The position numbers and the translations under genes are program-made. A stretch of DNA of 30,694 nt from a virus, in the IMG/VR virus record IMGVR_UViG_3300034106_005218, positions 1 through 30,694 of that record; one strand, written 5' to 3'. Of this stretch, positions 2,956-30,392 are shown piece by piece (within the stretch, counting starts at the first letter, position 1; every line of letters starts with the position of its first letter). The notes under the pieces are model-generated. The model made no database searches. It was not told the DNA's origin and was given only the letters and a program-made list of their open reading frames with translations.

Positions 2956-3120
2956 ATGATCCGTCCCTGGACCTTTCCCCCCCTCCGCCGTGTGATCGGC
3001 GTCGTCTTCGGGCTGGCTGCCTTCGGGCTGGCCGTGTCCGGCGTGCCCGTCTGGCACGCGGCATGGATCCCGTGTGCCCTGATCGCGTTCCTGGCCCTGC
3101 TTCCGAAGGGCGCAGCATGA
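2956..3120 (+). CDS. Small membrane protein, 54 residues
   Basis: A short gene with a good site (GGAG eight bases before the ATG). After a short basic N-terminus (RPWTFPPLRR) it has two hydrophobic stretches, roughly residues 13-29 and 33-49, split by a Trp/His turn, so it most likely forms a two-helix hairpin in the inner membrane. Small two-helix proteins in phages include holins, spanin partners and superinfection-exclusion factors; nothing here chooses between them. Its stop overlaps the next start (ATGA), so the two are coupled. Confidence 0.65.
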   Translation: MIRPWTFPPLRRVIGVVFGLAAFGLAVSGVPVWHAAWIPCALIAFLALLPKGAA

Positions 3121-4767: not shown

Positions 4768-4809
4768 CTGGGCGACGATCGAGGGGAACAGAAGGTTAGG
4801 CGATCGGGC

Positions 4810-4870
4810 TTGCGCCTTTCCCGCGATCGCATAGGCTGTCAGTGTCGGACGTTCCCCCGACACTGGAGCC
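4810..4870 (+). promoter_or_regulatory. Class A promoter plus leader hairpin
   Basis: TTGCGC (4810-4815), 16-nt spacer, TAGGCT (4832-4837), with GCGATC upstream of the -35 and GCGATCGC before the -10. The leader then forms a perfect 8-bp hairpin, AGTGTCGG (4841-4848) with CCGACACT (4857-4864), directly followed by GGAG and the ATG at 4875. The hairpin would sit at the very 5' end of the mRNA. Confidence 0.7.
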
Positions 4871-5794: not shown

Positions 5795-5808
5795 GTTAGG
5801 CGATCGGC

Positions 5809-5885
5809 TTGACGTGCTGGACCCGATCGCATAGGCTACAAGTGTCGGGGGGAGACAAGCCCACCGACACCACCACCACCGGAAA
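5809..5885 (+). promoter_or_regulatory. Class A promoter plus hairpin and CAC tract
   Basis: The best promoter in the window: TTGACG (5809-5814), 17-nt spacer, TAGGCT (5832-5837). GCGATCGG just upstream and CCGATCGC before the -10 form a perfect 8-bp inverted repeat around the -35. GTGTCGG (5842-5848) pairs with CCGACAC (5864-5870). CACCACCACC and GGAAAG then lead to the ATG at 5890. Confidence 0.75.
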
Positions 5886-15796: not shown

Positions 15797-18652
15797 ATGC
15801 AAGACCACCCGTACACCCTGGGCGGGGCAAGCATGATCCCGGCGAGCAAGGCGGCGGCCGCGGCGGCGGGGTGTCGCTGCGAGGATTGCCCGCTGCGGGA
15901 CGCGGCGGGCCCGATCTGGCCCGAGCAAGGCGCGGGCGCGCAGGTCGTCGTGCTGGGAGACCACCCGGACGGCGCCGACGTGGCGCAGGGGCGGCCCTTC
16001 GTCGGCCCCGCGGGCCGGGTGCTCGACGATGCGCTTCGGTCGGCCGGCGTGGGCCGTGGCGGCGCCCGGCGCGGGTTTGCGGTGCTCTGCCAGCCCCCAG
16101 ACAACAACATGAAGCGGCTGGTCGCGCAGGTACGCGCGCAGAACACGGCGCGCATGAAAGGCAACGCGGCGCGGGCGGAGCGTGGCGAAGACCCGCTCCC
16201 GCCGATCCCGTTGCCCGTCGATGCGTGTCGGGGTCAGGTGGCCGCGTTCCTTCGCGGGGGGCCCGGCTACGTCCTGGCCGCGGGTCCGCTTGCCGCCGAG
16301 TCGCTGCTGGGCTCCGGCGCGGCCCTGGGGGCCATCCGGGGGGCCATTCTGGACGGGCCGCTGGTCCGGCGGCCTTCGGGGGCGCTGGCGCTGCTCGACC
16401 CTTCGACGCCGGCGGAGGTTCGCGCCGAGCGCGGCGTCGAGGTGCTGGCGGAGGCCCGGATCGTCCCGACGCTCGCGCCGGACTACGTTCTGTTTTCGCC
16501 CCGGTGGACGGAGACCTTCGCCCGAGACGTGGACCGGCTCGCCCGCTGGCGGCATGGCCGGCTTGCCTGGAGCGATCCGGCCGTGGTCTTCCACCCGCCG
16601 CCCGCGCAGCTTGCGGCGTTCCTGGCCGGGCCGGGCCCGTACACCTACGACGTGGAGACGGACGGGATCGAGGCGCTGAGCGCGAACGCGCGCTGTGTCG
16701 GCATCGGGACGGGCGACGTGGTGATGCTGGTGGGGGTCCGCCCGAAGGACACGCCGGCCGACGCGCCCGATTGGCTCGCGGAGACGCGCTGGTACACGCC
16801 CGAGCAGATGGCGGAGATCAAGGCCACGCTCCGCGCGTTCTTTGCGGACCCGGAACGGCTGAAGGTGGGCCACAACGCCGGATATTACGATCGTCTGGTG
16901 ATCCGCCGGTGGCTGGGCGTCGATCCCGAACCGACGCTGGACACGATGCTCCTGCACCGGCTGGCGGAGAGTGAGCTACCGCACGCGCTGGGCTTCGTCG
17001 GCTCCAAGTATACCGACGTGCGCGCGTGGAAGGCCGACCGGGCAGGCCGGAAGATCGCCGTCGATGCCGAGACGGACCATGAACTGCACGCTTACTGCGC
17101 CCTCGACGTGGCGGTGACGGCGCGCGTGCTCGATCCGCTGGTTTCCGACGTGGCCCGGCAAGGCCAAGCGGACTTGATCGCGTCGGACCATGAGGTACAA
17201 CGGGTCTGCGCGGATATGCACGCGGTCGGAATGTATGTCGATCAGGACGTGCGCGGCGCGGTGGAGCGGTCGCTGCTGGCCGAGACGATCCGACTCCGCG
17301 ACAAGCTGCGCGACGTGACCGGGCGGCCCGATCTCAACCCGGGCAGCACCTACCAGCTTCGCCGGCTACTCTTTCAGGAATGGGGGCTGTCCCCGCCGCT
17401 GGACGACGAGATCCGGTTTACAGCATCGGGCGATCCGAGCACGTCCGATGACGTGGTGCGCTCCCTGCTGCTGGGCGCGACCCTCACCGAGCAGCAGCGG
17501 GTGTTTATCAAGGCCCTTCGGAAGTACCGGCGGGCGATGAAAGAGCTTGGAACCTACGTCGTCAAGCTGCGGCCCATGACAGAGGCGATCGCCGGGCTGG
17601 GCTGGGACGCCGACCGCTACGCCGGCGGCGAGGATGCCGAGCTTGCGGGGCGCATGGCGGCGGAGGCCGACGCGAAGGGCTACGGCGAGCGGGGGATCGT
17701 CTGGTCGGATGGCCGGATGCGCCCGGGCTATAACGCGCACGTCGCGGTAACTGGCCGGCTTTCGTCGTCGGCTCCGATCAACGCGCAGAACTTCCCCAAG
17801 CACCTACGGAAGATGGTACGGGCGGCGCCCGGAAACGTCCTGGTGGGCGCGGACGCGGACCAGTTAGAGCTTCGGATCGCGGCGGCCCGGTGGGGCCTTC
17901 GGCGCTATCTCGACGCCTTCGACCAGGGGATCGATCCGCATTCGATGGTGACGGCGGCGGCGATCTTCGGGGACGCCTTTCTGTCCTGCAAAGGTTGGCC
18001 CGGGCCCGAGAACGGCGGCAAGTGGTCGGACGATGCGTATAACTTCCGACAGCTTGCCAAGATCATTCAGTATGCCTTCCAATACAAGGCGAGCGTGGAG
18101 ACGGGCGCGCGGATCATCCAGAGCACCGAGCTTGACGACGGTTCGCTCCCCTACGCCCACCTGACGGTCGCGAAGGTCCGACAGATGCGCGAAGCGTGGC
18201 TCCGCGGGGTGCCCGAACTGGAGCGCGGCTGGGACCGTGAGATCCGTTTCTTCCGGGAGCATCACTTCATCCAGGAGCCCGTACACGGCCGCAAGCGGTT
18301 GTGTCTGGACGGGGAGAACCCGAATGAGCTTGTGAACTTCCCGATCCAAGGCTCCGCGGCCGGGCTTATCAACGACGCGATGATCGGGATCTGGAAGGAC
18401 ATACCCCTCCACCGCTGGGGCCCGGGGACGGGCCTACTCACGCAGACGCATGACGCGCTGGTGGTCGAGTGTCCGGCGGACGGCGCACACTTTGACGCGG
18501 ACGCGAAGCGGTGGATCGTGCCCCCGGGCTCCATCCCGGCGCAGGTTCAGGAGATCATCGAGCACCACATGAACCGGGTACACCCGGCGCTCCCCGGCGT
18601 GGCCTTCACCGCAAAGGCCGACGTGGGTTTGACTTGGAAGGAGGTAGGCTAA
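15797..18652 (+). CDS. Family A DNA polymerase with 3'-5' exonuclease and N-terminal uracil-glycosylase-like domain
   Basis: A 951-residue, three-domain protein. Residues 25-235 resemble family 4 uracil-DNA glycosylases: CEDCPL (C28, C31), GRPFVGPAGRVLDD (65-78), C98, C144, RGA and VPTLAPDY (223-230); all four iron-sulfur Cys are present. The exonuclease follows: DVE (D285, E287), HNAGYYD (359-365), YCALD (433-437). The polymerase has motif A GADADQLELR (684-693), O-helix RQLAKIIQYAFQYKAS (751-766; R751, K755, Y759) and motif C THDALVVE (884-891). It is the element's replicative polymerase. Odd points: the glycosylase catalytic His is Ala at 227; Tyr rather than Phe at the O-helix sugar-selector position; HDA instead of HDE. 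An ATG at 15833 is an alternative start. Confidence 0.93.
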   Translation: MQDHPYTLGGASMIPASKAAAAAAGCRCEDCPLRDAAGPIWPEQGAGAQVVVLGDHPDGADVAQGRPFVGPAGRVLDDALRSAGVGRGGARRGFAVLCQPPDNNMKRLVAQVRAQNTARMKGNAARAERGEDPLPPIPLPVDACRGQVAAFLRGGPGYVLAAGPLAAESLLGSGAALGAIRGAILDGPLVRRPSGALALLDPSTPAEVRAERGVEVLAEARIVPTLAPDYVLFSPRWTETFARDVDRLARWRHGRLAWSDPAVVFHPPPAQLAAFLAGPGPYTYDVETDGIEALSANARCVGIGTGDVVMLVGVRPKDTPADAPDWLAETRWYTPEQMAEIKATLRAFFADPERLKVGHNAGYYDRLVIRRWLGVDPEPTLDTMLLHRLAESELPHALGFVGSKYTDVRAWKADRAGRKIAVDAETDHELHAYCALDVAVTARVLDPLVSDVARQGQADLIASDHEVQRVCADMHAVGMYVDQDVRGAVERSLLAETIRLRDKLRDVTGRPDLNPGSTYQLRRLLFQEWGLSPPLDDEIRFTASGDPSTSDDVVRSLLLGATLTEQQRVFIKALRKYRRAMKELGTYVVKLRPMTEAIAGLGWDADRYAGGEDAELAGRMAAEADAKGYGERGIVWSDGRMRPGYNAHVAVTGRLSSSAPINAQNFPKHLRKMVRAAPGNVLVGADADQLELRIAAARWGLRRYLDAFDQGIDPHSMVTAAAIFGDAFLSCKGWPGPENGGKWSDDAYNFRQLAKIIQYAFQYKASVETGARIIQSTELDDGSLPYAHLTVAKVRQMREAWLRGVPELERGWDREIRFFREHHFIQEPVHGRKRLCLDGENPNELVNFPIQGSAAGLINDAMIGIWKDIPLHRWGPGTGLLTQTHDALVVECPADGAHFDADAKRWIVPPGSIPAQVQEIIEHHMNRVHPALPGVAFTAKADVGLTWKEVG

Positions 18653-22302: not shown

Positions 22303-22763
22303 CGAAACCCGCGCCGTTGCTGACCGCTGATCCCCGGTTGCCCGCGTTCATCGCGGATCATGCCTTGACGCTCGCCCATCGGATGCGCCGACAGGTGGGC
22401 GGGGATGCCGACTGGAGCGCGCATCTGCGCCTGGGACGGGCGCAAGACTTCCCGATGGATCGGGACTTTGCGTATTGTTCCGCGGACCCGGCGACGGGGC
22501 GGATCGAGATCGTCCTGGCGCCGCGCATCGTGGCCGAGGCCGCGACGGCGCGGGGCCGAGACAGGATCTCCGGGCTGCTGCGGCATGAGTTCGCCCACGG
22601 GCTGTTGTTGTTGGCCGGGCTCGACCATTCCGAGCGGGACGCCGATCGGGTCGCCGCGGACGTGTTCGGCCTCCCCGTCTGGTATGACGCCGACGACGTG
22701 CAGACCGTCAACCCCAAGGCGCCCGGAGCCCGTCGCCCGCGGCCCGCCTACCTGCCCGCATGA
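22299..22763 (+). CDS. Putative zinc metallopeptidase (HExxH)
   Basis: A 154-residue protein, coupled by ATGA on both sides. RHEFAHGLLLLAG contains HEFAH (96-100), followed by SERDADRVAADVFG with E112 and D114 placed as the third metal ligand. The pattern HExxH plus a downstream E/D, then an Ala-rich helix, is that of small gluzincins, including ImmA/IrrE-type peptidases that cleave repressors. If it is an ImmA-like protein it would cut a regulator; no partner repressor is identified, though the HTH protein at 9005 is one candidate. Catalysis is inferred from the motif only. Confidence 0.65.
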   Translation: MTKPAPLLTADPRLPAFIADHALTLAHRMRRQVGGDADWSAHLRLGRAQDFPMDRDFAYCSADPATGRIEIVLAPRIVAEAATARGRDRISGLLRHEFAHGLLLLAGLDHSERDADRVAADVFGLPVWYDADDVQTVNPKAPGARRPRPAYLPA

Positions 22764-23653
22764 CGCGCCGACCTACCCGCCCGGCGCCGCCTGCGCCGCC
22801 GAAGCCCGAGCCGGCCGAGGCGGACCTTGCCGCGTTCGCGGAGCATCTGCGCGTGGACCTGGGGCTGTTGGAGCGCACGCGGCAAGCGTACACCGGGGTC
22901 ATTCGGCGGGCCGGGCCCGATCCGGTCGGCGTGCTGCGTCGGCTGGTCGGCGCCCGGGCGCCCGAGGGGACGGTTCTTCAGGCCCGGGCGGCGGTGGGTC
23001 ACTGGCTCGCCTTCCGGGGCCACGGGCCCGAGGAGATCGCCGCCATGCTCCCCGCGGCCCGGGGCCGCAAGAGCACCGAGCGGGACGCGCTGCCCGAGGA
23101 GGCCCTGGCGGTGTACCTGCGGCTGGTCGAGGCGGTCCCCGAGCCCGTTCGATCGGTCCTCGCGCTGCTGCCCCGGTCGGGGCTGCGCGTCTCCGAGGCT
23201 TGCGGGCTGCGCCGGTCTTCGACCGTCGAGCACCGCGGGGGGCTCGCCTTGCGGATCTATGGCAAGGGCGACAAACCGCGGACAATCCCGCTGGGCGCCG
23301 AGGGCGCCGCCATCGTTAGGGCCGCGCTCGCCGCGGCCGGGCCCGACAAGGACGCGCCCCTGTTCGCGGGGCGCCGCGGGCCGGTCTCGACCAACCATAT
23401 CCGCGACTGGTGCGCCGTGCTCCGCGACCGGGAGGCCGAGCAGGCCGCCGCGGAAGGCCGCGCGCCGCTGCTGGGCGCGCTTTGCCCGCACGTCCTCCGG
23501 CACACCTACGCAACGCGCGCCCTGGTGGCCGGGATGGACCTACGGACGCTTCAGGTGATCTTGGGCCACGAAAGCATCAAGACCACCCAGCGGTACTTGC
23601 ATCCGGGGCTTGACGATCTGGCCGTGGGCGTTGCCCGCGTGCCTGGGCTGTAA
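22760..23653 (+). CDS. Tyrosine recombinase/integrase
   Basis: A 297-residue protein starting at an ATGA overlap. A Pro-rich head is followed by a SAM-like core-binding domain (22-90) and the catalytic domain with R143 (SGLRVSEACGL), K169 (YGKGDKPR), H244-x-x-R247 (HVLRHTYATR), H270 (LGHES) and Y279 (TTQRYLHP). The set is complete, so the enzyme should be active. Size and motifs fit XerC/D-like recombinases better than long phage integrases. It could integrate the element or resolve multimers. Unlike most integrases it sits deep inside a coupled operon with no visible attachment site next to it. Confidence 0.92.
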   Translation: MTRRPTRPAPPAPPKPEPAEADLAAFAEHLRVDLGLLERTRQAYTGVIRRAGPDPVGVLRRLVGARAPEGTVLQARAAVGHWLAFRGHGPEEIAAMLPAARGRKSTERDALPEEALAVYLRLVEAVPEPVRSVLALLPRSGLRVSEACGLRRSSTVEHRGGLALRIYGKGDKPRTIPLGAEGAAIVRAALAAAGPDKDAPLFAGRRGPVSTNHIRDWCAVLRDREAEQAAAEGRAPLLGALCPHVLRHTYATRALVAGMDLRTLQVILGHESIKTTQRYLHPGLDDLAVGVARVPGL

Positions 23654-23671: not shown

Positions 23672-24184
23672 ATGAAGGACGACGAGAAGGACGCCGGGAA
23701 GCCGGGGACGGGCGACAACGGGCAGACCGCGGGCGAGCAGGCCGGGGGCGCGCTGGCGTTGCTCCCCGCGGCGGTGCGTGATGCGATCGTGGGCGAGGTC
23801 GCGCTGGCCCTGCAAGGCCAGTTTGACGCGCAGGTGGCGAAGCTCCGCGTCGAGGTTGCGCGGGGCGTCGAGTCCGCCCACCAGGAGGCGGCGCAGGAGG
23901 TCCACCGGGTCAAGTATTCGGCGGCGGCCCGGCTGAATGACGGGATCGCGCTCATCAACGATATGCCGATCCCGCCCGATCTGACGTGTCTTCCGCCGCT
24001 GCCCGAGCCGGTGCGCGCGTGGTTCGCCCGGTATTCGACCTGGATCGAGTTCCGCCGGCGGGAGTACGGCGCGATCATGGAGGCGCCGCCCGACGATCTG
24101 GACCCGTCGCAGCTTCCGAAGCCGGTAGCGGGCGGCTTCCAAGCCGTTGAGGGCGGCCCGACGATCTCCCGGTGGGGGCGCTGA
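23672..24184 (+). CDS. Hypothetical protein, 170 residues
   Basis: Preceded by a G-rich site (GAGGGGGGGCC). Charged N-terminal 25 residues, a helical middle (AVRDAIVGEVALALQGQ; VESAHQEAAQEVHRVK) suggesting a coiled coil, and a Pro/Trp-rich C-terminus (PEPVRAWFARYSTWIEFRRRE). No family known. Its stop overlaps the methyltransferase start by one base (TGATG), so the two may function together, perhaps as an accessory subunit. Confidence 0.7.
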   Translation: MKDDEKDAGKPGTGDNGQTAGEQAGGALALLPAAVRDAIVGEVALALQGQFDAQVAKLRVEVARGVESAHQEAAQEVHRVKYSAAARLNDGIALINDMPIPPDLTCLPPLPEPVRAWFARYSTWIEFRRREYGAIMEAPPDDLDPSQLPKPVAGGFQAVEGGPTISRWGR

Positions 24185-25659
24185 TGCCGGCCGAGGTTCT
24201 GCAAGGGGATTGCGTCGAGGTCATGCGCGAATGGGAGGACGGGGTGATCGATGCGATCGTCTGCGATCCGCCCTACGGGCTGGAGTTCATGGGGAAGGAG
24301 TTTGACCGGCTGGGCGACGGCGAACGGATGCAAGGCTGGCATCGGGCATGGGCGGAGGAGGCGCTGCGCGTGCTGAAGCCGGGCGGCTACCTGCTGGCGT
24401 TCGGCGGTTCGCGGACCTATCACCGGCTGGCGTGCGCGATCGAGGATGCCGGGTTTGAGATCCGCGACTGCGTGATGTGGCTGTACGGGTCGGGGTTTCC
24501 GAAGTCGCTGGACGTGTCCAAGGCGATCGACAAGATCGATCGGGTGGGCCCGATGGAGGCTCGCGCCCGGCAGTTCACGGCCTGGATGCGTTCGACGGGG
24601 ATCACGGCGCAGCAGATCAACGAGATCACGGGTACTTTCATGGGGTCGCACTACACCACCGACAAGTCCCAGCCCTCCGTCGCAACCGCCGACCTGTTCG
24701 ACAAGCTCCGGCCCTACCTGCCCGCGGTCCCGGCGGAGATCGAGGAGTTGGTGCGTTCGCGCACGATCGAAATCGAGAACATGAAGCGCCGGAAAGTGGT
24801 AGGAGAGCGCGCTGTTCCTGTCGGTCACGCCTTCGCGGGCGAGGTCTACGGCCGCGAAGGCTCGGCTTCCGCCATCGTACCTATCACCCTCCCCTACTCC
24901 GAAGACGCCCAACGCTGGGCCGGCTGGGGAACGGCGCTGAAGCCGGCGCATGAGCCGATCGTGGTCGCCCGCAAGCCCTTGATCGGGACCGTCGCCGCGA
25001 ACGTCCTACGCCACGGGACGGGCGCGCTGAACATCGACGGGTGCAGGGTGGGGACGGAAAACACGCGAAGATCGAATGTGGAGTCAATCGGATATGGTGG
25101 CAGCAATAGACCATTTGAGTCTGGATCGGACTCCGGCCGCTGGCCCGCGAACGTGATCCACGACGGGAGCGAGGAGGTACTGGCCGGGTTTCCGGTGACG
25201 ACGAGCGGGAAACCGGGGATCATGCGGAAGGGGATCAACGACGGCGCAGCCTACGGCGCGGAAAGTCGGCCCCCGGGTACTCCCATGTCAGGCTTTGGAG
25301 ACTCCGGCTCCGCCGCCCGGTTCTACTACTGCGCGAAGGCGAGCAAGGCGGAGCGGGAGGCCGGGCTGTCTGCGCCGGCCGGCAAGCGCGCAAACGTGCA
25401 TCCGACCGTGAAGCCCGTCGCTCTGATGAAGTACCTCCTCCGGCTGGTCCTGCCCCCCGGGGGGATCGCCCTCGACCCGTTCGCGGGCTCGGGGACAACC
25501 CTGGTCGCAGCGGCGGAGCTTGGCATGACGGCGATCGGCATCGAGCGCGATCCGGCCTACGTCGAGATCGCAGCGGCCCGCGTGCAGGCCGCCGAAGCCC
25601 GCGCCGCCCGGGGAGACGCCGACACGGACGCCGACACCGACGAGGAGGGCGAAGAATGA
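24184..25659 (+). CDS. Beta-class site-specific DNA methyltransferase (N6-adenine or N4-cytosine)
   Basis: A 491-residue enzyme. LQGDCVEVM opens the chain, then DPPYGLEFMGKEFD (DPPY 28-31, motif IV), AFGGSRTYHR, and at the end HPTVKP (406-411) and DPFAGSGTTL (431-440, motif I), with IGIERDPAYV after it. Motif IV before motif I is the beta order of DNA amino-methyltransferases, which use S-adenosylmethionine. A segment of about 80 residues (124-205: ITAQQINEITGTFMGSHYTT, KLRPYLP...) interrupts the fold where the target-recognition region lies. No restriction enzyme gene is adjacent, so this is likely a protective or regulatory orphan. ATG 24184 is chosen over GTG 24172 because of the TGATG overlap. 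Confidence 0.9.
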   Translation: MPAEVLQGDCVEVMREWEDGVIDAIVCDPPYGLEFMGKEFDRLGDGERMQGWHRAWAEEALRVLKPGGYLLAFGGSRTYHRLACAIEDAGFEIRDCVMWLYGSGFPKSLDVSKAIDKIDRVGPMEARARQFTAWMRSTGITAQQINEITGTFMGSHYTTDKSQPSVATADLFDKLRPYLPAVPAEIEELVRSRTIEIENMKRRKVVGERAVPVGHAFAGEVYGREGSASAIVPITLPYSEDAQRWAGWGTALKPAHEPIVVARKPLIGTVAANVLRHGTGALNIDGCRVGTENTRRSNVESIGYGGSNRPFESGSDSGRWPANVIHDGSEEVLAGFPVTTSGKPGIMRKGINDGAAYGAESRPPGTPMSGFGDSGSAARFYYCAKASKAEREAGLSAPAGKRANVHPTVKPVALMKYLLRLVLPPGGIALDPFAGSGTTLVAAAELGMTAIGIERDPAYVEIAAARVQAAEARAARGDADTDADTDEEGEE

Positions 25660-26929: not shown

Positions 26930-27442
26930 CTATCGGCGGGCGCCGTGCCCGTCGCTGCGCGCGTGCCCGTCGCGGCCGTCGCGGCGCATCGCGTCCAGCG
27001 CCGCCTCGATGCGGCCCAGGTGGTCGCCCAGACCCTCGACCTTTTCGGCCAGCCGGCCGAGCACGACGGCATCCTGACGGTCGCGGGCGTCCATCCCGGC
27101 TACCGTCGTCTCGATGGTCCCGATCCGCGTCTCCAAGCTCGCCATCTTCGCGAGGAGATCGACCGGGGGCGCCGTCGCGGGCTGCGCCGCGGGCGCGGCC
27201 GTCGATTGCCGGGCCGGAAGAAAACCCAGCCGATCGAGCAGGACAACGGCGCCGACGACGACGGAGACGCCGAGCCCGACCGGGCCGGCTACGGCGTCCA
27301 TGCCCGCGGGCAGGCCCGCAGCGGCGCCTTCATGCGCCGCCAGCGGCGGCGGGGACGTGGGCGCCCCCGCGCCGGGGCCCGGAGCGGTGGGGCCCGGGGC
27401 GGTGGGGCCTCCCACCAGTCCGGCCTGCTGCTGATCGCTCAC
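26930..27442 (-). CDS. Membrane-anchored coiled-coil protein
   Basis: A 170-residue protein (GTG start overlapping the previous stop as GTGA). The first 45 residues are Gly/Pro/Ala-rich. One hydrophobic segment follows at about residues 50-75 (AGPVGLGVSVVVGAVVLLDR), then a Gln/Ala/Pro linker, then a coiled coil (LLAKMASLETRIGTIETTV; VVLGRLAEKVEGLGDHL). The His/Arg/Asp tail is basic. A single membrane helix plus coiled coil is seen in some phage holin-like and DUF2746-type proteins; a lysis role is possible but not shown. Confidence 0.65.
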   Translation of the reverse strand: MSDQQQAGLVGGPTAPGPTAPGPGAGAPTSPPPLAAHEGAAAGLPAGMDAVAGPVGLGVSVVVGAVVLLDRLGFLPARQSTAAPAAQPATAPPVDLLAKMASLETRIGTIETTVAGMDARDRQDAVVLGRLAEKVEGLGDHLGRIEAALDAMRRDGRDGHARSDGHGARR

Positions 27443-27792
27443 GGGGCGACCTCAACGGCGCTGTTGATGAACTGGAAGGAGACTGAGGGCGTACCGCCTA
27501 CCCCCTCCAAGCGGAGGGCGACGGCCCGGCCGGCGCCGATGCCGCCGCAAGGCCGGAAGCGGGCCCACCCGATCCGGTAGGTGATCGATCCGCCCGGGGG
27601 GATCGTCGCGCTGTTCGACGCGGTTAGGTTGGTCCCCTGGGGCACAAACCCGACAAGCGCCGAGAGCGTACCGTCCAGGTTGTAGACGATGACCGTGTGT
27701 GTGTTGTCGTCCGGCTGCTTCGACACGTCGGCCGTCGTCCCGTTGCCGGCGGTATCCGTGGCGTAGTCTACAAGGTTGGGCGAGAGGGCCAA
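27439..27792 (-). CDS. Candidate structural or surface protein
   Basis: I start this gene at the TTG at 27792 because GGAG lies six bases upstream (GGAGCGCACC); an in-frame GTG at 27834 would add 14 residues but has no site. The 117-residue product is rich in Thr, Asn, Gly and Ser with alternating beta pattern (THTVIVYNLDGTLSALVGFV; GTNLTASNSATIPPGGSITY) and few charges, like small phage decoration or tail-associated beta proteins. It is the only hint of virion material in the window. It is coupled by GTGA to the membrane/coiled-coil gene. Assignment is compositional. Confidence 0.55.
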   Translation of the reverse strand: MALSPNLVDYATDTAGNGTTADVSKQPDDNTHTVIVYNLDGTLSALVGFVPQGTNLTASNSATIPPGGSITYRIGWARFRPCGGIGAGRAVALRLEGVGGTPSVSFQFINSAVEVAP

Positions 27793-27899
27793 GGTGCGCT
27801 CCGGGGCCGGGCTGGCAGGCTCCAAGGCTACCACGCGGGCAGATCGGCGGAAAGGGCGAGGATGCCGCCCGGCGCGGGCCTTCGGCCGCGGCGCCCCCG

Positions 27900-27923: not shown

Positions 27924-27937
27924 GACGCGGTTTCTAA

Positions 27938-28051
27938 GCGTTCAGACTGACAGTATGGGCCCCGGCGAGAAGGTGGCATTAGCACCGGGGGCAGAAAGCA
28001 CGGGCGAAAGCCGACAATCCGCCGGCTTACCCATACTGTCAGTCTGAACGC
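27938..28051. ncRNA. 114-nt element with 22-bp perfect terminal inverted repeats; structured RNA or MITE candidate
   Basis: The arms 27938-27959 and 28030-28051 are perfect inverted repeats of 22 bp and are less GC-rich than their surroundings. The 70-nt interior can fold into two smaller stems: AAGCCG (28008-28013) with CGGCTT (28023-28028), and CCCCGG (27960-27965) with CCGGGG (27985-27990), giving a three-way-junction layout. It begins one base after the stop of the Dam-type gene (minus strand) and is not followed by a T-tract, so a plain terminator fits poorly. Alternatives are a non-coding RNA, a miniature inverted-repeat transposable element, or a processing site. No convincing reading frame runs through it. 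Confidence 0.55.
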
Positions 28052-28052
28052 C

Positions 28053-28667
28053 TTACGGAACGCGCGGGCGAAGGCCGAGATCGCGCAGCGCGGGCGCAAA
28101 GGCTTCAGTGTCCCAGCGCCAGTAAGCATGGCGGAGGGGGCCGGCGGCGCGCAGCATGGGCGGGCCGTAGACGATCAGGGCGTGGCCCTTCGGGGCGCCG
28201 CTCCGGGCGTCGGGCTCCTCGGGGAGCACGAAGCGCACCCGGGGGCCCAGGAAGATCACGCCGAGCGCGGTAGGGGCCAAAACGACGTGCTGGTGCCAAT
28301 ATTCGGTGTCGGTGTTCGCGGGGATCAGGACGCAGACGACGATCCCCGTCGCCGCCTCGCCAGCCGCCTTTGCGAGCCAGTCGCCCACCGCGCGCCCGTA
28401 GGGCGGATTGAGCCAGACGGTCGGGATCGTCGTCCGGGTACGCCGGGGGCAGAAGTCGCGCCAGCGCACGGCCAGCCCGTCGTCTGCGGGCCCGATGAAC
28501 GCATCGGCGCGGGCCTCCTCGGCGGAGCCGGCGGCGGCGTCCAGGTCAAACCCCATCACGGCGTCGATCGGGTCGTAGACCTCGGGCGGCGTCGTCCAGT
28601 CGTCGCGGCCCAGGGTGCGGGTTGTCGGAGCCGGGCCCGTCGTGGGGGCGGCGCGCTTGCGGGGCAT
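28053..28667 (-). CDS. Dam-type phage DNA N6-adenine methyltransferase
   Basis: A 204-residue protein. RDDWTTPPEVYDPIDAVM (21-38), FDLDAAAGSAEEARADAFIG (40-59) and VWLNPPYGRAVGDWL (84-98; NPPYG is motif IV) match the phage Dam family (PF05869 type), which methylates adenine, classically in GATC. Length fits. No GATC endonuclease gene is seen, so it is an orphan methylase, able to protect DNA or to mark it for regulation. GATC occurs in the paired half-sites of the class A promoters. The start is the ATG at 28667 at the end of the hairpin and CAC-tract leader. Confidence 0.85.
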   Translation of the reverse strand: MPRKRAAPTTGPAPTTRTLGRDDWTTPPEVYDPIDAVMGFDLDAAAGSAEEARADAFIGPADDGLAVRWRDFCPRRTRTTIPTVWLNPPYGRAVGDWLAKAAGEAATGIVVCVLIPANTDTEYWHQHVVLAPTALGVIFLGPRVRFVLPEEPDARSGAPKGHALIVYGPPMLRAAGPLRHAYWRWDTEAFAPALRDLGLRPRVP

Positions 28668-28715
28668 GGTGGGGCTCGGTGGTGGTGGTGGTCGGGGCCC
28701 GCGGGGGGCGGGCCC
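28668..28715 (-). promoter_or_regulatory. Hairpin plus CAC-tract leader
   Basis: On the minus strand, an 8-bp hairpin (28695-28702 with 28708-28715) is followed by CCGACCACCACCACCACCG, then AGCCCCACC and the ATG at 28667. Ribosome site is weak. The hairpin lies 8 bases after the preceding gene's stop. Confidence 0.5.
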
Positions 28716-28723
28716 GGGGCGGG

Positions 28724-29206
28724 TCAATCGACCGGGGCGGCGTCGGGGTCGTCCAGCAGCAGCGCGGCGTCGTCGGCGTCTCCCGCGACGTTGCCGAACC
28801 GATCGCGGAGGGCGCGGAGCCCGGACAGGTGATGCGGGCCGGGCTCGACTCGGTGGACCCGGGACTCGACGGCGAGCACCGCGAGGGCGGCGTCCGCCGT
28901 CGCCAGGGCCCCCTCGGCGGCCTCGCAGACCGCGAGGATGCCCGGGTGATCGTCGGCCTCGTCATACAACTGCCCCACCGCCGCCTGCGCCCGGTTGAGC
29001 GCGCCTTTGACTTTGCCCGCGACCTCCTGGGCTGTCTCCCAGGCATACCCGAACTCTCGATAGCTGTCGTCGTCGTCGTCTGCGACCAGCGCCTCCAGCG
29101 CCTTGATCGCGTCGTCCACGCTCTCCTCGGCGGCGGTGGCGCGGTCGGCCAGCCGGGTAAACGCGCGGGCGGCGGCCTCCGCGAGCTTGGTCTGTTTCGG
29201 GGTCAT
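28724..29206 (-). CDS. Helical hypothetical protein, 160 residues, MTPKQ start
   Basis: The start at 29206 is fixed by GGAG within a 36-bp sequence repeated exactly at the next gene. The protein is largely helical and Ala/Asp/Glu-rich (RAFTRLADRATAAEESVDDA; AVCEAAEGALATADAALAV) with an acidic run (ADDDDDSY), probably a coiled coil. No family recognised. Confidence 0.7.
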   Translation of the reverse strand: MTPKQTKLAEAAARAFTRLADRATAAEESVDDAIKALEALVADDDDDSYREFGYAWETAQEVAGKVKGALNRAQAAVGQLYDEADDHPGILAVCEAAEGALATADAALAVLAVESRVHRVEPGPHHLSGLRALRDRFGNVAGDADDAALLLDDPDAAPVD

Positions 29207-29226
29207 GGGGGGATCTCCAGTGAGGG
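29191..29226 (-). repeat. 36-bp leader/start repeat, copy 1
   Basis: Perfect 36-bp direct repeat with 29700-29735. It spans the end of the leader (TCACTGGAGATCCCCCC), the ATG and the first five codons (MTPKQ) of two otherwise different genes. Confidence 0.9.
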
Positions 29227-29240
29227 GAAGGGAAGCGGGC

Positions 29241-29267
29241 CCGGGCCCGGGGGATAGCCGGGCCCGG
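29241..29267 (-). promoter_or_regulatory. Hairpin between two minus-strand genes
   Basis: CCGGGCCCGG (29241-29250) and CCGGGCCCGG (29258-29267) are each palindromic and pair across a 7-nt loop, starting 8 bases after the stop of the 29275 gene. Terminator or leader hairpin. Confidence 0.55.
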
Positions 29268-29274
29268 GGGACGA

Positions 29275-29715
29275 TCAGTAGCGGCGGCGGGAGCGCATCG
29301 TGCTGGATGCTTCCGCGGCGGCCCGCAGGTTGTCCTCGTCGGGATCCCCGATGAACTCCATCGTTTCGGGGTCCAGGACGGCGGCGGTCTCCCACTTGAT
29401 CTCAGACGGCGAGATCGTGATCGTTTTGACCATCTCAAAGCTGTACCCGTCCGTGAGGATCAGGTCCGCATTAGTGAACTGGGAGTCCACGCTGCCGGCA
29501 TGGATCAGGACGCCCAGATACCAGTCGGTGTCCCCGTAGTACGTTTTGGCTTCGTCCAGCGTCTCTCCGCGGTTTTTGGAGATACGCTTCAGGGCGTCGG
29601 CCTTGGTTCCGGCCGCGCCGCGCTTGACGGCGGCGCCGATGACGACGGCGGCGGCGTTGATGCCCTCCTGATCTTCCAGGCGGTTGACGGCGCGCATGAT
29701 CTGTTTCGGGGTCAT
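29275..29715 (-). CDS. Hypothetical protein, 146 residues, MTPKQ start
   Basis: An alpha/beta protein with no known motif: an N-terminal helical part (IMRAVNRLEDQEGINAAAV), a basic linker (RISKNRGETLDEAKTYY), a strand-rich centre (WYLGVLIHAGSV; ADLILTDGYSFEMVKTITIS), and a Ser/Arg tail. Base composition is less extreme than its neighbours, with more Ile, Thr, Lys and Tyr codons. That hints at a different origin from the surrounding GC-rich genes. Its leader and first codons duplicate those of the 28724 gene. Confidence 0.75.
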   Translation of the reverse strand: MTPKQIMRAVNRLEDQEGINAAAVVIGAAVKRGAAGTKADALKRISKNRGETLDEAKTYYGDTDWYLGVLIHAGSVDSQFTNADLILTDGYSFEMVKTITISPSEIKWETAAVLDPETMEFIGDPDEDNLRAAAEASSTMRSRRRY

Positions 29716-29735
29716 GGGGGGATCTCCAGTGAGGG
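29700..29735 (-). repeat. 36-bp leader/start repeat, copy 2
   Basis: Partner of the repeat at 29191-29226. The perfect match stops soon after the fifth codon, as expected if a leader-plus-start cassette was copied or kept by gene conversion. Confidence 0.9.
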
Positions 29736-29806
29736 AAGCGGGACAGGGAAGCGGGCCCGGGTGAACCGGGGATAGGCCGGGGACAGACCGGGAGGATAGC
29801 CCAGCA

Positions 29807-30286: not shown

Positions 30287-30392
30287 GGGAAGCTCCGTGT
30301 CGGTGGTGGTGGCGGTGGTGGGTGGGCGACGTGCCCCGCGGTGCAGCCGAACGGGCGGCCGGATGCACCGCGGGGCCCCCCGCCCGGGGGGC
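30287..30392 (-). promoter_or_regulatory. Hairpins plus CAC-tract leader
   Basis: On the minus strand: a 7-bp hairpin (30375-30381 with 30386-30392) just after the upstream stop, a perfect overlapping-edge 13-bp hairpin (30333-30345 with 30364-30376), then CGCCCACC, a CAC/ACC tract, CGACACGGAG and CTTCCCATG. The order and several words match the leader at 2357-2455 on the other strand. Confidence 0.65.

Follow-up and report, generated by a model that had tools for sequence, protein, structure and literature searches.

An inverted-repeat element between p131 and a methylase gene

The window, i.e. the whole stretch of 30,694 nt that was analysed, is a viral sequence from IMG/VR (record IMGVR_UViG_3300034106_005218, positions 1 to 30,694). 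At positions 27938-28051 it contains inverted arms that match perfectly over 22 bp and lie 70 nt apart, an arrangement far above chance expectation. The features of the locus, together with the recombinase gene considered below, are as follows:

22760..23653, + strand: XerC/XerA-like tyrosine recombinase, 297 aa, R-K-H-R-H-Y residues present; the proposed enzyme for the site
26930..27442, - strand: 170 aa, possible membrane segment and coiled coil; the next gene, in the same direction as p131
27439..27834, - strand: p131, 131-aa protein of no assigned function; syntenic marker downstream of the element in relatives
27938..27959, + strand: left arm (putative accessory box), GCGTTCAGACTGACAGTATGGG; conserved outer CGTTCA at 27939-27944, an outer hexamer that also occurs in related records
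27967..27983, + strand: core, the proposed crossover site, GAGAA-GGTGGCA-TTAGC, 28 nt from the outer end
27984..28029, no strand: longer flank, from core to right arm; its length is fixed in relatives and its sequence weakly conserved
28030..28051, - strand: right arm, perfect inverted copy of the left arm; conserved outer TGAACG at 28045-28050
28053..28727, - strand: Dam-type N6-adenine methyltransferase, likely start near 28667; its stop lies one base from the element

Much of what an earlier note had read from this DNA was borne out. The arms (27938-27959 versus 28030-28051) are identical over 22 bp and enclose 70 nt, as it had described, and the methylase stop (TTA at 28053-28055, read on the + strand) is indeed one base away. 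The composition differs from the surroundings, with a G+C content of 61% in the element and 55% in the arms versus 72% in the window. A scan of the element found no T-tract, in agreement with the note, and also no terminator-like site and no sigma-70 promoter. The note had further suggested a search for other copies: the element is single-copy in the window, where no additional arm copies with up to three mismatches were found (0.00 expected in shuffles). Among the 381 kb of loci that were compared, perfect arms of at least 20 bp occurred only in this element and in that of a sister contig (see below), the next longest being 18 and 17 bp.

The hairpin that the element can form in the window is very stable on both strands (fold z -8.9 and -9.9), while the 70-nt interior folded alone reached z values of only -1.35 and -2.0. 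The possible three-way junction of the earlier note did not survive this analysis: when forced, it had energies of -64.0 and -68.1 kcal/mol on the two strands, versus -70.3 and -73.8 kcal/mol for the minimum-energy extended hairpin, i.e. it was about 6 kcal/mol worse on either strand and was rejected. No family match was obtained when the element was searched against Rfam. An integron attC site was also considered. The attC core is AAC/GTT, which the AAG/CTT at the stem base of the element does not fit.

Several other features of the window were recorded in passing. A 54-nt direct repeat is present three times (1944-1997, 4795-4848 and 5795-5848; GTTAGGCGATCG...CGATCGCATAGG..AGTGTCGG), apparently in intergenic positions ahead of + strand ORFs, and is likely to be a shared promoter or operator. 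Two neighbouring - strand genes have a duplicated leader comprising the ribosome-binding region and first codons (MTPKQ) at 29181-29252 and 29690-29761. Other long, imperfect GC-rich hairpins lie at 2354-2408, 2874-2932 and 30324-30385; the left arms of the first two are copies of a direct repeat.

Diverged versions of the element in related phages

Searches of IMG/VR with 19-nt and 15-nt arm words, a 17-nt interior word and two gapped 10-nt half-arms returned the sister contig and otherwise chance single-arm or coding matches. A 17-nt arm word searched in GTDB genomes likewise gave chance single-arm or coding matches only, with no arm pair, and BLASTN of the element against phages and plasmids produced nothing convincing. 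In the sister contig (IMGVR_UViG_3300031857_018318), the element is 114/114 identical, at the same place and in the same orientation. Since SNPs occur on both sides of it, an assembly artefact is unlikely; the complete identity also means that this contig provides no covariation information. A separate observation from the same pair of contigs concerns the DNA methyltransferase gene at 24172-25659, which differs at up to 60 positions per 100 bp within 24600-25300, while most of the surroundings differ at 0-3. The pattern resembles that of an exchanged specificity region.

Searches with the flanking proteins returned the sister contig alone. More diverged relatives, 80 loci of related phages, were reached with a profile of the family-A DNA polymerase encoded at 15797-18652, which carries a fused N-terminal family-4-like uracil-DNA glycosylase (UDG) domain; the fusion extends to the related phages at 32-59% identity. 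The related records are all IMG/VR contigs, which may be incomplete. Homologues of p131 marked the syntenic place in 8 of the 25 records searched.

Upstream of p131, an inverted-arm block was found in four related lineages, namely G002, G003 (with near-duplicate G004), G006 and G014 (with near-duplicate G009). In all four, the outer CGTTCA...TGAACG boxes span exactly 112 nt, as they do in the window (27939-28050). The rest of the arm sequence is lineage-specific (GACTGACAGTATGGG in the window, CACCCCGATCAT in G014 and CACCCGCGTCC in G006), and within the relatives the two arms match each other imperfectly. The relatives also share a palindromic core, GATAA-N7-TTATC, at a fixed offset of 28 nt from one outer end and 67 nt from the other. 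Their GATAA-GGATACA-TTATC aligns without gaps to GAGAA-GGTGGCA-TTAGC of the window, and positions 27967-27983, which lie at exactly the offset seen in the relatives, are the best match (12/17) to this core among 61,356 positions on both strands. Gap-free comparison of the element interior with the relatives gave identities above those of shuffles (p 0.0001-0.0009). Both half-sites of the window core are degenerate (GAGAA, TTAGC), which may reflect either a shifted recombinase specificity or decay. In G014 and G006, the core is oriented oppositely relative to p131.

Three more distant records (G015, G017 and G018; polymerase 37-39% identical) contain a core with a 6-nt spacer inside inverted arms of unrelated sequence. 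Here the span is 101-105 nt and the core lies 35-36 nt from the nearer end and 50-53 nt from the other. Positions drawn at random from these genomes rarely had arms that scored as well (p 0.005 or less). By the same score, the arms of G002 and G003 alone were not better than random (p 0.05 and 0.19), and the membership of these two rests on the shared outer boxes, span and core.

Some relatives show additional features around the element. In G014 (locus L132), the 18-bp arm box is present five times within about 720 bp (2389-2406, 2449-2466, 2543-2560, 2637-2654 and 3088-3105), and the last two boxes abut the start codons of small genes. The putative arm-binding protein may thus also be a gene regulator in G009/G014. 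Extra arm-box matches at 96.9-97.0 kb of G009 fall in repetitive coding DNA and were taken as chance. In L135 and L137, a promoter-like TTGACG...TACGAT is located downstream of the element, in the interval between it and p131, so that transcription of p131 in these phages probably starts from a separate promoter. Finally, G011 contains a weak 115-nt inverted repeat (15969-16083, locus L169) about 290 bp upstream of p131, the inside of which does not fit; it may be a diverged version of the element.

The tyrosine recombinase and its association with the core

The recombinase encoded in the window is 41-51% identical to its homologues in the relatives, with the R-K-H-R-H-Y residues conserved. 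Its profile matched archaeal XerA (4a8e) over the full length (E 1.1e-37), and XerA (5hxy) was also the top Foldseek match of its AlphaFold2 model (mean pLDDT 83, pTM 0.62). With the complete set of catalytic residues and this full-length match, the protein qualifies as a candidate Xer-family partner for the core. As in two-domain Xer proteins, helices start at residue 18 and the PF00589 domain at residue 127; no extra N-terminal arm-binding domain of the lambda type is evident in the 297 residues.

A PF00589 recombinase is present in 11 of 30 related records, which form the basis of the following counts. The pattern GATAA-N6-8-TTATC occurs exactly once in nine of the 11 recombinase-bearing records and in one of the 19 without recombinase (Fisher p 3.5e-5, or 2e-4 after collapsing duplicates), the absences among the latter being weakened by the fact that these records are fragments and partly more distant. 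The sole recombinase-less record with the pattern also contains the reversed control pattern. The two recombinase-bearing records that lack the core are the 13.6-kb fragment G001, which stops about 1 kb past the gene, and G011 (39 kb, with p131). In every case, some 1.8-5.5 kb separate the element from the recombinase gene; the two are not adjacent. In G015, G017 and G018, the recombinases are more diverged. Spacer class and geometry thus differ along with the recombinase subfamily, two recombinase classes pairing with two core-spacer classes and two geometries.

Taken together, the anatomy of the element, its conservation and its association with the recombinase gene indicate that 27938-28051 is probably a conserved phage recombination site, used by the phage's own Xer-type recombinase. 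The palindrome conserved inside the element speaks for recombination at the DNA level, a reading absent from the earlier note. According to the mechanism that we propose, the XerC/XerA-like recombinase would bind, cut and exchange strands at the dif-like core (27967-27983), which would consist of two inverted half-sites around a 7-bp overlap. The arms would bind an accessory DNA-binding protein or extra recombinase subunits, and the arm-bound protein would fold the DNA so that the reaction becomes directional. An accessory protein is proposed because the recombinase has no extra N-terminal arm-binding domain. The outcome would be either i) integration into the host chromosome, with the element as attP, or ii) resolution of phage or prophage-plasmid multimers, both of which are compatible with the data. 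Having just one core per genome favours an intermolecular or dimer-resolving reaction over inversion. We observed no recombination event, attB, attL/attR or integrated copy, and no lysogen was found. A search of 294 genomes from the phylum of the Phycisphaeraceae, to which the host does not necessarily belong, gave no core pattern either.

The proposal provides a candidate recombinase-site pair for an uncultivated group of high-GC phages with UDG-fused PolA polymerases. Such a pair would tell whether these phages are temperate, and the core sequence would help to look for attachment sites in their hosts. Arms that diverge while spacing and core remain fixed would be useful for studying how accessory proteins direct Xer-type recombination. 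The case also calls for some caution, as what stands out as a perfect hairpin may be two binding sites for a protein, placed in inverted orientation.

Alternative explanations and known recombination systems

The earlier note had left the choice between ends of a mobile element and a selected structure, such as a structured RNA or a processing or packaging signal. Selection is the part that stands, given the conservation of outer boxes, 112-nt span and internal core in diverged phages; mobility is not. Perfect terminal inverted repeats, small size and a possible TA at both sides (27935-27936 and 28054-28055) would suit a MITE or another miniature transposable element, but there is one copy in the window instead of many and no arm pair was found elsewhere in IMG/VR or GTDB genomes by exact arm words. 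The homologues keep span and core, are single-copy and hold their position upstream of the same gene, which the note itself had named as evidence against a MITE, and we regard this reading as refuted to the point of being barely credible. An invertible segment, i.e. a phase-variation switch flipped between the 22-bp arms by a tyrosine recombinase, is highly improbable too. Such an enzyme is encoded, recombination could keep perfect arms identical, and the opposite core orientations in G014 and G006 would agree with inversion. However, the dif-like core is single, conserved and placed inside, the arms have no core-like palindromes and are imperfect in relatives, no flanking crossover sites were recognised, and both contigs of the window lineage show the same orientation. 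Selection on a structured RNA, which the note had considered, would make the element an RNase III processing hairpin in the methylase mRNA, comparable to transcribed Correia/NEMIS repeats, whose hairpins are cleaved by RNase III (PMC2649163, PMC10969869). This precedent, the very stable hairpin in the window and its start one base after the stop codon speak for it. Against it, a check of the homologues for compensatory changes, as the note had proposed, found uncompensated arm mismatches in the relatives and loss of the fold (z -1.1 to -2.3 in G002/G003 versus -9 to -10 in the window). There is no Rfam family, and no Dam homologue was found in relatives with the 112-nt element; those of three other relatives are in records or places without it. 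We therefore give the RNA reading little credence, and all three explanations are disfavoured as the identity of 27938-28051.

Two further readings also treat the element as protein-bound DNA. As a replication origin or a replication/partition site, the palindrome and inverted iterons would be bound by a phage initiator or partition protein. The fixed geometry, intergenic location and occurrence once per genome, in genomes rich in replication genes, are compatible with this. Still, we recognised no conserved initiator gene beside the element, which is tied to p131 and the recombinase and not to the polymerase/helicase module, and phages with the same polymerase lack such a core when the recombinase is missing (pattern in 1 of 19), so that an origin appears improbable. 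Somewhat less remote, though still unlikely, is a regulatory region, with a repressor or another regulator of the genes on either side using arms and core palindrome as its operators. The five arm boxes within about 720 bp in G009/G014, two of them abutting start codons of small genes, would also fit the operators of a regulator; inverted operators at a fixed spacing could loop, and G002 and G003 have the promoter-like TTGACG...TACGAT in the interval from element to p131. On the other hand, only two arm boxes are present in the window, and it would be left unexplained why a dif-like core with a 6- or 7-nt spacer is present, why it occurs once per genome and why it is associated with recombinase genes.

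A recombination site is thus the reading that we compared with known systems. In bacterial dif, the inner half-site ends ATAA/TTAT surround a 6-nt centre, as seen in the sequences of E. coli and F. alni (PMC3025954). The phage core CTTACGATAATGTATCCTTATCGGAACG resembles dif of F. alni (CACGCCGATAATGCACATTATGTCAAGT) and E. coli (GGTGCGCATAATGTATATTATGTTAAAT) (PMC3025954); its centre is 6 nt in G015/G017/G018 and 7 nt in G002/G003/G006/G014, with the degenerate GAGAA-N7-TTAGC in the window. The single-recombinase systems XerA, XerH and XerS, of which archaeal XerA works by itself on a dif-like site (PMC5357621), likewise use one Xer-type recombinase with core-binding and catalytic domains and inverted half-sites around a centre (6 nt in dif, 7 in the clade of the window). 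In contrast to the phage case, where recombinase and site are both carried by the phage, dif (28 bp) is chromosomal and has no inverted accessory arms at a fixed distance. Phage P1 Cre/loxP shares the phage-encoded two-domain tyrosine recombinase and, as one possible role, multimer resolution, whereas the 34-bp loxP needs no accessory arms. Correia elements (CREE/NEMIS) are similar in size (104-108 bp), inverted ends and the possible strong transcribed hairpin, but they are multi-copy and mobile, unlike the single-copy element of the window with its conserved position and core.

Systems with accessory DNA come closer in layout. ColE1 cer has a core of about 30 bp plus accessory DNA that includes an 18-bp ArgR box 98 bp away, and its reaction is directional (PMC2409434). 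Both combine a core with accessory DNA in which an 18-bp protein box keeps a set distance (PMC2409434), and the arms, as putative protein boxes, are likewise found at fixed distances of 28/67 or 35-36/50-53 nt from the phage core. Yet cer depends on host XerC/XerD, PepA and ArgR and extends for about 180 bp on one side, whereas the phage element has its own recombinase and inverted arms on both sides. Lambda-type attP shares core-type sites around a 7-bp overlap, flanking arm-type sites and a phage-encoded recombinase. It differs in that the recombinase here is Xer-sized, without evident room for the arm-binding domain that a lambda-type integrase has, so that an accessory protein would be required, and in the gap of 1.8-5.5 kb between gene and site. 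The element is best explained as an Xer/att-type site that carries accessory arms, in a new variation on this kind of site. It is also conceivable, and we put this forward tentatively, that these phages possess a self-contained Xer system, in which a single phage recombinase acts at a dif-like core set in a compact 101-112-bp site between mirror-image arms bound by a phage protein, and the arms diversify from lineage to lineage while core and geometry stay fixed. If true, directional recombination sites would have a design not seen before.
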